Shown: in pieces, positions 7,928 to 54,584 of the stretch | Position numbering within the stretch: position 1 is the first letter of the stretch | Layout of the letters: each line of letters opens with the position of its first letter | Source of the DNA: Clostridia bacterium | GTDB lineage: Bacteria; Bacillota; Clostridia; Oscillospirales; Acutalibacteraceae | Length of the DNA: 63,568 nucleotides | Direction: 5' to 3' | NCBI GenBank assembly: GCA_017436285.1 | Contig: JAFSDL010000053.1 | Coordinates: 1 to 63,568 of the forward strand | Made by a program: the position numbers and the translations under genes | Notes under the pieces: model-generated | Database searches by the model: none | Seen by the model: the letters and a program-made list of their open reading frames with translations, nothing else | What the model was told of the DNA's origin: nothing

Positions 7928-8560
7928 TTATAAAATTTTATTTATTAATACTTTAAAAACACCTGTGTTTGTCGAATCTATTATACTGTATGTACTCCAT
8001 TTTATTGCATACTTACCATTTAGAATGATAGCATATTTGCAATCTCTTCCTTTGGTACCATCACCTGTGTTTTTACCCCAATTCATAACGCCACTTTTTG
8101 TTGTTCCTTCGTGAATTGAGAATTCATAATAATTCACATTTTTAGAAGCAGGTGATTTTGTGTATGATAATTCATTGGTTATTAAAATTGCATAGCCTTC
8201 ACTAAATAAAGAAACGTTTTCTTTGATTGTTTCTATACGTTGGATGTCTTTTAGGTATGCATAACAATTGACATCTTTTGCAGAATGATTTTTTAAATTG
8301 TAAAATTCTCCATCAACTATTTTTTTACAAGCCTTTGTTTTGTATTTCAATTCAATTGGAATCCATTTGCCATCAATAATCACCAATAAATCTATATGCA
8401 TATCGGTATCAAACTGAGGACAATATTCCAATCTGACAATAGCATGTGGATAAATTGACCTTATCATCCAAGCCAACTCTAATTGAAAATCAGCTTCTGA
8501 CACGAATATTTTTCTTTTTATACTTAATTCTTTTAATACCATTTCTATGTTAAAATCCAT
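7928..8560 (-). CDS. Predicted PD-(D/E)XK-fold protein, possible nuclease
   Basis: No named family is recognised. The 210 aa sequence has the order of a PD-(D/E)XK nuclease core: a helix with acidic residues (SEADFQLELAWMI, residues 21-33), then a strand carrying Asp (DMHIDLLVII, about 53-62), then PIELKYK (about 68-74) supplying the (D/E)XK pair. The C-terminal half, rich in Asn, Lys and Tyr, is unassigned. Base composition is more AT-rich than its neighbours, which hints at acquisition. The gene starts just inside one edge of a hairpin array, after a GGAGAT site. It may be a defence or DNA-repair nuclease; the context does not decide. Confidence 0.6.
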   Translation of the reverse strand: MDFNIEMVLKELSIKRKIFVSEADFQLELAWMIRSIYPHAIVRLEYCPQFDTDMHIDLLVIIDGKWIPIELKYKTKACKKIVDGEFYNLKNHSAKDVNCYAYLKDIQRIETIKENVSLFSEGYAILITNELSYTKSPASKNVNYYEFSIHEGTTKSGVMNWGKNTGDGTKGRDCKYAIILNGKYAIKWSTYSIIDSTNTGVFKVLINKIL

Positions 8561-8577: not shown

Positions 8578-8750
8578 TCGATATACAAGCAAGCTTGTTC
8601 GATATATTTTGCACAACAAAATTCGATATATTTAGCGTTGCTAAATTCGATATGATATAAATCCTTATTTACTCGTGCCAACGGCACATATCGAACCACA
8701 GGTATATCGAATCGTCAGATATATCGAAAATCCGTCAGGATTTATATCGA
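8578..8750. repeat. Hairpin array 1 (TCGATAT x4 / ATATCGA x4)
   Basis: Eight copies of a 7-base word separate short palindromes. The first four words read TCGATAT, the last four ATATCGA. Spacers in order include ACAAG-CAAG-CTTGT, ATTTTG-CACAA-CAAAAT, ATTTAGC-GTT-GCTAAAT, a longer irregular spacer, GTGCC-AAC-GGCAC, ACC-ACA-GGT, ATC-GTCA-GAT and AAATCC-GTCA-GGATTT. Thus almost every spacer is itself a hairpin, and the two halves face each other. The array fills the gap between the PD-(D/E)XK gene and rlmD and supplies the last codons of rlmD. Function unknown. Confidence 0.9.
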
Positions 8751-10097
8751 GGAGAGGGTGAGCAACGCCACACTCTCCACATGGCTTGTTCTCGGAAACA
8801 TATCTACCGGTGTGACTTCCTTCACTTCATAACCAAGTGTAAGAAGGCGAGAGCAATCCCTTGCCAATGTTGCGGGGTCGCAGGAAACATAGACAATTTT
8901 CTGCGGGTTTATTTCTGCAACAGTTTTCAAAAGCTCCTCTGCACAGCCCTTTCTTGGTGGGTCGAGAATGACTGTATCGGGCTTGATACCCTCATTTTTA
9001 AGCTCTTCTGCGGCAACGCTTGCATCACCGCAAATGAAACGAGCATTGTTAATATCGTTGAGTTTTGCATTAACCTCTGCATCCTCAATAGCCTCGGGGA
9101 TGATTTCAACGCCAACCAATTCTTTAACAGAATTTGCCATTGAAAGACCGATTGTACCTGTACCGCAGTAAAGGTCAAGAATTGTCTGGTCAGGGGTGGG
9201 TGCAACATATTCTGCGGCTTTTTTATAAAGAAGCTCTGCACCGTTTCTGTTTACCTGATAGAAAGAAAGGGGAGAGAGCTTGATTTTTACACCGCAGAGA
9301 ATGTCGGTAATGTAACCATCGCCATAAAGGTTAATGCAATTTTCGCCTAAAACAACATTGGTCTTTTCTCGGTTTATGTTTACAACAAGTGTTTTGAAGC
9401 CTTCAATTTCTTTAAGGCTTTCAATCAGCTCTTCGCTATTTGGAATGGTGTTACCATTTATAACAACGCAAGCCATAATTTCGCCTGTTGCAAAGGCTTT
9501 TCTCAGATATATATGGCGGATAAGACCGATGCCGATTTCCTCATTATAAACTGTAACGCTATTTTCATTAATCCATTTGCGGAATATTTCTATTATGCTT
9601 GTAAAATCCTGAGGCTGTAAAAGGCAATCACCACCGTCAATTACACGGTGGCTTTTTTTAGCATAAAAGCCGATATTTAAAATACCGTTTTCACGCCTTA
9701 CAGGGTACTGCGCTTTGTTGCGGTAGCGTGTTGTTTCAGGGGAGGAAATAATTGGCTTGAATTCGGGAGAAAGACCGCCGATTCTTTTGAAGGCATCCTC
9801 AACCTTTTGAGCCTTGTATTCAAGCTCTTCCTCATATTTTATGTGACCGAATGAGCAACCGCCACAGCTTTTAAAGGAAGTGCATTCAGGCTCAATTCTG
9901 CTTTTTGAGGGCTTTATTATTTTCATAGCCTTACCTATGGCATAGGTTTTCTTTGCCTTAATAATATGGCAGAGAATTTCATCACCAACAGCAGTGTTTT
10001 CAACGAAAATTGCTTGTCCGTCGAATTTACCTACACCGCCACCCTCTGAGGTGTAGCCGGTTATATTCAATTTGAATTCATCGTTTTTGTTAACCAT
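8742..10097 (-). CDS. rlmD: 23S rRNA (uracil-5-)-methyltransferase, RlmD/RumA family
   Basis: SAM-dependent methyltransferase forming 5-methyluridine in 23S rRNA. The 451 aa protein has an N-terminal TRAM domain (about residues 4-60), an iron-sulfur cysteine set CTSFKSCGGC (about 72-81), a Rossmann-type SAM domain with LDLYCGTGTIGLSMA (about 310) and ILDPPRKGC, and the catalytic cysteine in YVSCDPATLARD. Gram-positive RlmCD enzymes can modify two sites, so exact specificity is uncertain. It overlaps the upstream rnmV-like gene by eight bases. The last residues (SSI) and the stop codon lie within hairpin array 1, so the original 3' end was probably replaced. Confidence 0.93.
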   Translation of the reverse strand: MVNKNDEFKLNITGYTSEGGGVGKFDGQAIFVENTAVGDEILCHIIKAKKTYAIGKAMKIIKPSKSRIEPECTSFKSCGGCSFGHIKYEEELEYKAQKVEDAFKRIGGLSPEFKPIISSPETTRYRNKAQYPVRRENGILNIGFYAKKSHRVIDGGDCLLQPQDFTSIIEIFRKWINENSVTVYNEEIGIGLIRHIYLRKAFATGEIMACVVINGNTIPNSEELIESLKEIEGFKTLVVNINREKTNVVLGENCINLYGDGYITDILCGVKIKLSPLSFYQVNRNGAELLYKKAAEYVAPTPDQTILDLYCGTGTIGLSMANSVKELVGVEIIPEAIEDAEVNAKLNDINNARFICGDASVAAEELKNEGIKPDTVILDPPRKGCAEELLKTVAEINPQKIVYVSCDPATLARDCSRLLTLGYEVKEVTPVDMFPRTSHVESVALLTLSSI

Positions 10098-16988: not shown

Positions 16989-17020
16989 AATTATTTCACT
17001 CCTAATAAAATTAAATCTTT

Positions 17021-17090
17021 TACCTTAGCTATCCCTCTTTTTTGCTTTAGCAAAAAGGAGGGGGGACCGCGTCAGCGGTGGGTGGTACAT
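17021..17090. repeat. Solo terminal segment of the palindromic MITE-like family
   Basis: Contains CTATCCCTCTTTTTTGC...GCAAAAAGGAGGGGGG followed by ACCG and GGTGGGTGGTAC, the same series seen at the left ends of the elements at 27.1 and 51.4 kb. The right half is missing, so this is a truncated or solo copy. It lies inside the alaS leader, between the hairpin array and the ribosome-binding site. Confidence 0.75.
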
Positions 17091-17099
17091 AATTTTCTC

Positions 17100-17278
17100 A
17101 TTTCGCCGCAAGGTGAAATATATCGAGTGACTTGTCACATATCGAGTCCTTTAGGACATATCGAGCCGTCAGGCATATCGATTGTCGATATGTTTGTCTT
17201 ACGATAAACTCGATATATTGCTATGCAATTCGATATACAAATCAAAGATTTGTTCGATATGTTTTGCCAAAGCAAAAC
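17100..17278. repeat. Hairpin array 2 (ATATCGA x4 / TCGATAT x4) in the alaS leader
   Basis: A leading hairpin ATTTCGCC-GCAA-GGTGAAAT is followed by four ATATCGA words enclosing GTGAC-TT-GTCAC, GTCC-TTTA-GGAC and GCC-GTCA-GGC. Four TCGATAT words then enclose an imperfect GTTTGTC-TTA-CGATAAAC, ATTGC-TAT-GCAAT, ACAAATC-AAA-GATTTGT and GTTTTGC-CAAA-GCAAAAC. The number (4+4) equals array 1 but the halves are in swapped order. It would be transcribed as part of the alaS mRNA leader, downstream of the T-box decision point. Confidence 0.9.
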
Positions 17279-28336: not shown

Positions 28337-28447
28337 AATTGAAAGTTGCAAGTTGAAAGTTGAAAGTTTCGGGACCTGCGGTCAGCATTATAATAGCGTC
28401 GCAGACCCTTAATTTTCCATTTTCCATTTGCCACTTGCCATTTTATT
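28337..28447. repeat. Heptamer-bounded element (complete copy)
   Basis: The left edge is a forward 7-bp-period tract (AAGTTGC, AAGTTGA, AAGTTGA, AAGTTTC; 28343-28370). The core is GGGACCTGCGGTCAGC...GCGTCGCAGACCC around ATTATAAT. The right edge is an inverted 7-bp tract (TTTTCCA, TTTTCCA, TTTGCCA, CTTGCCA). It lies between the T-box terminator and the ileS ribosome-binding site, so it is within the mRNA leader. Confidence 0.75.
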
Positions 28448-47387: not shown

Positions 47388-47389
47388 TT

Positions 47390-47484
47390 GCCAAGATTAA
47401 CTTGGCAGCGATATAAATCCTTGCGGATTTGCGATATATCTGACGATGCGATATACCTTCGGTGCGATATGTGCCTGATGGCAC
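47390..47484. repeat. Hairpin array 3 (GCGATAT x4)
   Basis: A first hairpin GCCAAG-ATTAA-CTTGGC (which includes the end of the kinase transcript) leads into four GCGATAT words followed by AAATCC-TTGC-GGATTT, ATC-TGAC-GAT, ACC-TTC-GGT and GTGCC-TGAT-GGCAC. These stems match, in the same order, the reverse complement of the second half of array 1, with changed loops and a changed junction word. Confidence 0.88.
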
Positions 47485-47487
47485 GAG

Positions 47488-47524
47488 AAAACTCTCTCTT
47501 TGATTTTACAAAGGGAGAGTTTTT
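47488..47524 (+). terminator. Terminator after the two-component genes
   Basis: AAACTCTC pairs with GAGAGTTT around an inner CTTTG/CAAAG stem, followed by TTTT. Confidence 0.7.
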
Positions 47525-54514: not shown

Positions 54515-54584
54515 AGCAAATAGCAGATAGCAGATAGCAAATAGCTAACAGCTAATTGCTAACCACTAATCGCTAATTGGTAGG
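54515..54584. repeat. Heptamer-phased tract of ten units
   Basis: AGCAAAT, AGCAGAT, AGCAGAT, AGCAAAT, AGCTAAC, AGCTAAT, TGCTAAC, CACTAAT, CGCTAAT, TGGTAGG. It fills the entire gap between permeases 2 and 3 and includes the region where a ribosome-binding site would lie. Confidence 0.85.

Follow-up and report, generated by a model that had tools for sequence, protein, structure and literature searches.

Hairpin arrays on a 7-nt word in a Clostridia genome as probable S23-less copies of a mobile element

The cyanobacterial STRRs are intergenic heptamer arrays, and IS200/IS605-type PATEs, REP/BIME elements and MITEs are palindromic, non-autonomous and dispersed. Two other systems bear directly on the arrays analyzed here. 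The IVS of Coxiella 23S rRNA is described as carrying an S23p ORF, with terminal inverted repeats that form a 28-bp stem and tandem heptamers (GACAGAT) before the ORF; it is termed a selfish element there, an older proposal by which the ORF has a role in mobility is cited, and the function and origin of S23-bearing IVSs are said to be unclear (PMC4990558). Arrays of the heptamer TAACTGA in Beggiatoaceae and Cyanobacteria are described as intergenic and of unknown source, with many located just before start codons and with indels mostly in 7-nt steps; the author raises the possibility that a mobile element spreads them, and that the mobile element is a protein binding the repeats (PMC4679880). 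A text search of the latter paper for S23 or 'four helix' returned no mention. The S23 family (PF05635, 23S_rRNA_IVP) is reported to resemble Avd of diversity-generating retroelements (PMC10053308). Among the titles and abstracts listed by searches of openly licensed PMC text, we found no description of hairpin arrays on a fixed word or of a general link between S23 and heptamers.

We analyzed a 63,568-nt stretch of contig JAFSDL010000053.1, hereafter the window, from a Clostridia assembly (G000, 84% complete). Array 1 consists of eight exact words, TCGATAT or ATATCGA, four per orientation (Table 1), just as a preliminary description had it. The six spacers between words of the same arm are 14, 17, 17, 9, 10 and 16 nt long, and the centre is 34 nt. 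Nearly all spacers had been called perfect hairpins. By eye all six do self-fold, but two of the stems are just 3 bp long, and a stricter hairpin script scored only 4 of 7 spacers, the centre counted among the seven. TCGATAT occurs 21 times in the window versus 5.4 expected, a count reached by 0 of 100 shuffles. Two further arrays reported earlier are also present, one (array 2) with the same 4+4 design in the opposite layout and one (array 3) with four direct copies of GCGATAT. All arrays of the window are placed between ORFs or at an ORF end. CRISPR arrays have unique, non-palindromic spacers of ∼30 nt; the same-arm spacers here are 9–17 nt, palindromic and recurrent among copies, and CRISPR was rejected, in agreement with the first reading. 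A known structured RNA was rejected as well: an Rfam search of the whole window at gathering score returned a tRNA only, and no rRNA family match.

Table 1. Positions of the arrays and neighboring features within the window
Feature	Positions	Strand	Details
Array 1, type A (R arm + L arm, S23 absent)	8578..8750	-	8 words, 6 same-arm spacers, 34-nt centre
Array 1 L arm with its four ATATCGA words (- strand)	8578..8653	-	hairpins 8585-8598, 8606-8622, 8630-8646
Array 1 R arm with its four TCGATAT words (- strand)	8688..8750	-	hairpins 8695-8703, 8711-8720, 8728-8743
Fourth hairpin beside array 1 R arm, inside centre	8675-8687		
Internal inverted repeat of array 1, GATATAAATCCT / AGGATTTATATC, one half	8654..8665	.	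12/12 complementary
Internal inverted repeat of array 1, other half	8737..8748	.	co-varies across elements
tRNA/rRNA uracil-5 methyltransferase gene	8742..10097	-	Pfam tRNA_U5-meth_tr + TRAM
210-aa ORF, putative ribosome-binding site adjoining array 1 L end	7928..8560	-	
Array 2, type B (L arm, CAA, R' arm; without S23)	17100..17278	-	outer hairpins 17100-17119, 17261-17278
Eight words of array 2 (4+4, layout opposite to array 1)	17120..17260	-	
Plain tandem heptamers in two inverted arms, (TGAAAGT)n, GACCTGCGGTC centre, inverted arm; S23 absent	28339..28440	.	
Array 3, solo R arm	47389..47491	+	4 direct GCGATAT words at 47408-47470; outer hairpin 47389-47407, fourth hairpin 47471-47484, end GAGAAAA
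Tandem heptamers TAGCAGA/TAGCAAA, then inverted run	54515..54575	.	

The L end of array 1, ATATCGA-CAAAAGGAG, precedes the start codon of the 210-aa ORF, which had no match in a Pfam search, and is similar to the L end of S23-bearing copies. The stop codon of the methyltransferase gene, which we take to be RlmD, sits within array 1; in G000 the array supplies the stop, and the six orthologues compared end otherwise. The region 3' of this gene looks different in the relatives inspected. Array 2 is flanked on one side by the start codon of alaS, identified by Pfam as tRNA-synt_2c, and on the other by a stretch that we assume, from its motif, to be T-box-like; Rfam made no call there at gathering score. 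Next to array 2, at 17020-17085, is a further hairpin repeat (GGGGGGACCGCGTCAGCGGTGGGTGGTACATA), and similar stretches recur in G003, in the alaS leader and at a second site. Array 3 matches by eye the architecture of R arms in S23-bearing elements. Among the plain heptamers of the window, the inverted arms at 28339-28440 look like a tandem-type relic.

Two readings of the arrays as expression signals can be weighed against these positions. If they were ordinary bidirectional terminators or attenuators, the terminator-like hairpin and T run that follow array 3 would be accounted for, as would the additional hairpin that many copies have just beyond the R end. But the array hairpins themselves are not followed by T runs, termination needs neither fixed words nor a 4+4 design, and the Rfam search at gathering score found just a tRNA; we consider this reading extremely unlikely. 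Alternatively, the arrays might be RNA leader elements, with S23, RNA-binding like Avd, binding the word in mRNA leaders to control translation of the gene that follows and with copies recruited as a regulon. The location of array 2 in the alaS leader is consistent with this, as is the adjacency of the L end to putative ribosome-binding sites, both at array 1 and at S23 genes; yet the end of array 3 lies ∼150 nt ahead of the next ORF. Together with the folding evidence given below, this makes the leader reading rather unlikely in our judgment.

The preliminary description had suggested looking for a protein family that co-occurs with the arrays, and S23 is such a family. Several arrays terminate in ATATCGA-CAAAA just 5' of the putative ribosome-binding site of a small gene, and all four of these genes that were submitted to Pfam belong to PF05635. 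A word scan of genome contigs gave at least 119 stretches, from which a hairpin filter retained 66 loci (444 kb, identical arrays counted once). Among the matches listed for these loci there are seven S23 genes, all of them 13–24 nt from an array, and every organism is of Clostridia type as judged by title keywords. In viral contigs, 75 stretches were found; the filter retained seven, and removal of three as simple repeats (L191, L200, L241) left four distinct hairpin arrays. A distant-mode search with array 1 against phage and plasmid records gave no match.

Within G000, a word search found 38 word pairs in seven places and none for the backwards-read pattern. Besides array 1, five of these places were taken to be whole or partial copies of the same type, and hairpin order is constant among the copies while stems change together. 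Among relatives, 39 of 60 have at least one word pair, although single pairs are often due to chance, the reversed control also matching in many; the richest genomes are G006 (61 pairs), G056 (44), G046 (18), G017 (17), G055 (14) and G014 (12). PF05635 is present in 42 of the 60 relatives, in up to 11 copies per genome, and in 27 of 119 genomes sampled phylum-wide, 24 of them above the curated cut-off. The 84%-complete G000 assembly has two S23 genes, whose words are GTGATAT and ATGATAT; no S23 gene with TCGATAT was found in it. For pairs with unsaturated synonymous sites, dN/dS of S23 ranges from 0.04 to 0.16, values by which the family is under purifying selection. At the threshold used, its solved relatives are limited to 2RLD (PDB; one entry, five chains). 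Some S23 genes lie between other annotated genes (L439, L448, L440, L444, L438, L450 and L443, that of L448 being an unannotated S23-like stretch), the pairs around them being drmD/pglX, restriction subunit S/HsdR, DUF1156/Swt1, helicase/methylase and cas2/cas1. For two of these pairs, three relatives were fetched, all without S23.

In its fullest observed form, the element has an R arm, an L arm, the S23 gene and a further R arm, in this order. An arm usually comprises four 7-nt words with hairpins of varying sequence between them, and the R word is the reverse complement of the L word. The earlier proposal that arrays grow by hairpin units is unsupported, four words per arm being the usual layout. 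In G020 (L414), an outer hairpin is followed by four words with hairpins (R) and a centre ending in GGAATTTATATC, then by four inverted words with hairpins (L), CAAAAGAGG, the S23 gene and a near-identical R copy of ∼100 nt; one or two words per arm are one base off GCGATAT. By eye, G001 has two more R-L-S23-R elements (L298, L299), and G056 an L-S23-R' form (L307). Also in G056, TCGATAT arms in inverted layout surround a small ORF that is not S23 and that looks by eye like a membrane protein (L308:3106-3573). Judged by layout, array 1 is R plus L without S23; array 2 is L plus R', with CAA alone between the arms (- strand); and array 3 is R only. Within R, an inverted repeat links the 5' half of the first hairpin to the end of the centre; it differs between families and matches inside each element: agreement was 6.6 of 7 nt within elements versus 4.5 of 7 between elements (n = 14 elements).

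Orthologous sites were compared for array 1, array 2 and sister copies. At the site of sister copy C45, G000 has R-L, G020 has R-L-S23-R with GCGATAT, and G009 has an element-free gap of 74 nt; G003 and G014 have other repeats there. By eye, the array 1 site, 3' of the methyltransferase gene, is without array in G003, G009, G014 and G017 and holds arrays built on other words in G002 and G012. The alaS leader has no array in G014, G017 and G020, an S23 gene in G006, heptamer-like repeats in G008 and other repeats in G003. For two more sister copies, the G003 sites are broken or replaced. A base-by-base comparison, made for one site and against diverged relatives, revealed no recognizable target-site duplication. 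With both a copy that carries S23 and a site lacking the element turned up by these comparisons, the arrays have the look of non-autonomous element copies, which fits a suggestion already made in the preliminary description. The explanation we favor, and hold to be likely, is that they represent non-autonomous, S23-less versions of a mobile element whose fullest observed form is R-L-S23-R.

The arrays resemble the S23 IVSs of Coxiella and Leptospira, a further mark of which is excision from RNA by RNase III. In both, an S23 ORF lies between inverted repeats (here, in the relatives' elements) and the words are heptameric; the complementary R and L words would give a terminal stem, and predicted folds pair word to word. 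Unlike those IVSs, the window arrays are intergenic rather than in 23S rRNA and have no S23 gene. They also differ in the hairpins between words, in a direct R repeat beside the R/L arms and in the presence of S23-less copies in the same genome.

To assess S23 genes chosen without regard to repeats, we scored inverted similarity between the 250 nt upstream and the 250 nt downstream of Pfam-picked genes (score of at least 20). Inverted flanks were present at 31 of 63 S23 genes (L308 excluded), compared with 0 of 249 shifted positions and 15 of 315 mismatched pairs; against the shifted controls, the Mann–Whitney p was 1.6e-17. A phylum-wide set gave 13 of 25 versus 2 of 91 controls; here 29 loci were fetched, 28 were tested (the G000 locus excluded) and three without a match to the S23 profile were dropped. 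By eye, several of these phylum-wide genes are located in 23S rRNA-like sequence. Among 16 named plasmid or phage records, hand-picked for organism spread from 28 with a match, 11 had inverted flanks (0 of 28 controls) and 13 had tandem arrays, all of period 7, compared with 1 of 64 control stretches, also of period 7. The plasmid hosts are Cyanobacteria, a spirochaete, a Bacteroidota member, Chloroflexota and a Clostridia member, so that four other phyla are represented. Two phage scaffolds failed both automatic tests; by eye they have hairpin-like arrays.

Arrays beside S23 genes were also called automatically. For 77 genes, some of them word-chosen, tandem arrays were called 24 times on the upstream side and 17 times on the downstream side (5 of 301 controls), and 39 of these 41 arrays had period 7. 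Hairpin arrays were called 23 times upstream and 8 times downstream of the same genes (3 of 301 controls); at least two of the calls (L268, L295) are plain tandem arrays picked up by the hairpin test. The automatic array test was negative at 25 of 69 Pfam-chosen S23 genes. In being composed of 7-nt units, intergenic and placed before start codons, the window arrays are like the TAACTGA arrays, which, unlike them, are described without hairpins between the words (PMC4679880). The preliminary claim that the arrays fit no repeat class was thus too strong, with heptamers before an S23 ORF (PMC4990558) and intergenic heptamer arrays (PMC4679880) already in print.

The word had also been called invariant. 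It is fixed within the window's arrays but constant just within a family; other S23 genes have GCGATAT, ATGATAT, GTGATAT, GTTATGA, ATGAATT and others instead. In a tree of 73 S23 proteins (eight hand-set labels: L268, L295, L275, L298, L308, L314, L325, L326), 24 of 26 hairpin-labelled genes fell in one clade of 36 and two outside it. The clade has 12 members without an array label and none labelled tandem. Ten members without an automatic array were inspected by eye: eight have hairpin arrays, L316 has plain heptamers and L284 has neither. On a tree of 46 proteins, 11 words on 33 labelled proteins required 10 changes, the minimum, and the lowest of 300 shuffles required 18; words were assigned by eye, some once a first tree was known, and 8 of the 33 had been found via TCGATAT-holding flanks, seven of those by the word scan. 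The remaining 13 rows were unlabelled (11 outgroup rows, L284, L316), and L141 was excluded. Both trees omit duplicates and proteins of <85 aa. Word ATGAAGC did not form a single group. On these trees, word and S23 protein travel together. As the word and the S23 gene are adjacent, their co-segregation demonstrates linkage but not binding.

Pairing is kept as stems change, as had been noted. In 14 type A elements, of which G000 contributes four, Watson–Crick pairs fill 352 of 372 stem cells, versus 207 expected with 3' letters dealt among elements; the elements are related, and the shuffle ignores kinship. Most stem cells of accepted hairpins are Watson–Crick (1329 of 1362, the filter having admitted Watson–Crick, G.T and A.C cells alone; 903 of 961 in a looser count). 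Such near-perfect stems could also be expected of inert dispersed repeats, with hairpins kept perfect by template-switch correction of quasi-palindromes and S23 proximity due to hitch-hiking. That reading leaves unexplained the identity of the word across eight copies, the loop polarity described next, the word–S23 clade association and the purifying selection on S23, and we think it very unlikely.

Predicted folds pair R words with L words, partly or wholly, giving four-way junctions with hairpins pointing outward, although not every fold has all four word pairs. Compared with shuffles, array 1 RNA gave z of –5.8 for the + strand and –2.7 for the - strand (3 of 200 shuffles as good), and array 2 RNA gave –5.8 for the - strand. 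The - strand of array 1 as single-stranded DNA gave –5.9. Good folding as RNA is in line with leader elements, but in array 1 it is the - strand, the sense of the neighboring genes, whose RNA folds worse.

The hairpin loops are polar. Of 169 distinct hairpins on the ATATCGA strand, 126 have tri- or tetraloops; GNA makes up 33 of 59 and GNNA 36 of 67 (69 of 126 together), with no mirror TNC or TNNC. By arm, in the 14 elements, the counts on this strand are 22 of 32 (R) and 11 of 20 (L), with no mirror loops in either. On the S23-sense strand, the R arm accordingly has T..C in 22 of 32 and no G..A, and the L arm has G..A in 11 of 20. The two arms read ATATCGA on opposite strands, and no single transcript could therefore present both of them with the favored loops. 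This speaks against RNA leaders and makes folding at the DNA level the preferred option. The loops d(cGNAg) and d(cGNNAg) are unusually stable in DNA, and GNRA is the RNA counterpart. GNYA loops outnumber GNRA, 25 to 11, also contrary to the leader reading. Wobble pairs point the other way: re-oriented to the ATATCGA strand, distinct hairpins have 20 G.T and 8 A.C (p 0.036), and the ratio is 12 to 2 in L arms, that is, on the S23-sense strand. With arms as found, the counts are 18 and 15, R arms having 6 and 13. The 20:8 bias fits ATATCGA-strand folding in either nucleic acid. We lean towards the folding strand being perhaps DNA rather than RNA.

What is sequence-based in the mobile-element account is the architecture, the closeness to S23, the S23-bearing form and empty site at one orthologous site, the heptamer periodicity beside S23, the covariation, the loop polarity and the association of word with clade. 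A mechanism can be proposed on this basis. S23, a small four-helix bundle and Avd relative, would bind the repeated word. A single strand would fold, with R words pairing to L words in a chain of four-way junctions and hairpins outward, and the moved entity would be this folded strand, most likely DNA. Bound to the word arrays of the folded strand, S23 may enable copying or movement of the element, whether in cis or in trans. We know of no catalytic site in S23, and cutting and joining would therefore probably be done by host enzymes. An S23 that matches the word would mobilize S23-less copies in trans. The hairpin form would be a single clade within a broader class whose S23 genes sit between inverted arrays of plain tandem heptamers.

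The mover could instead be an enzyme encoded elsewhere, with S23 as helper: either a reverse transcriptase or an HUH/Y1 transposase like those of IS200/IS605 and REP elements. Hairpin ends and single-strand polarity are reminiscent of IS200/IS605, and Y1_Tnp is found in 6 of 8 genomes examined, G000 included. PF05635 also resembles Avd, the partner of a reverse transcriptase (PMC10053308). Yet RVT_1 is missing from 6 of the 8 genomes, with none in G000 (84% complete), and Y1_Tnp is missing from G001 and G006, each of which has 10 S23 genes; G001 lacks both. From these absences, neither enzyme looks obligatory, in assemblies that are incomplete and with later enzyme loss possible. A separate mover of this kind seems to us doubtful, on the unlikely side. 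Diversity-generating retroelements were rejected as an identity for the arrays, with RVT_1 in only two genomes, and the same absence sets them apart from Avd systems. REP elements seem an unlikely identity, the arrays having several hairpins on a fixed word and two of the 8 genomes lacking Y1_Tnp. With PATEs, REP/BIME elements and MITEs the arrays share a palindromic, non-autonomous and dispersed nature; they differ in the points just named, and no target duplication was recognized at one site.

More broadly, and tentatively, S23 (PF05635) could be the protein that reads the word in minimal mobile elements, which would form a widespread class; we put this proposal at somewhat short of an even chance. 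Each element would consist of a protein of ∼120 residues and the inverted arrays of 7-nt words that it recognizes. Such an element would encode no enzyme and would move as a folded single strand of DNA. The 23S rRNA IVSs, the cyanobacterial and Beggiatoaceae heptamer arrays and the hairpin arrays would be members or relics, and word and protein would co-evolve. The simple rule that a 7-letter word frames the S23 gene and goes with its clade makes both the function of S23 and the source of heptamer arrays testable, and gives a poorly understood family a testable job. If true, this would be an element class with a very small protein, no recognizable recombinase and a natural chain of four-way junctions.
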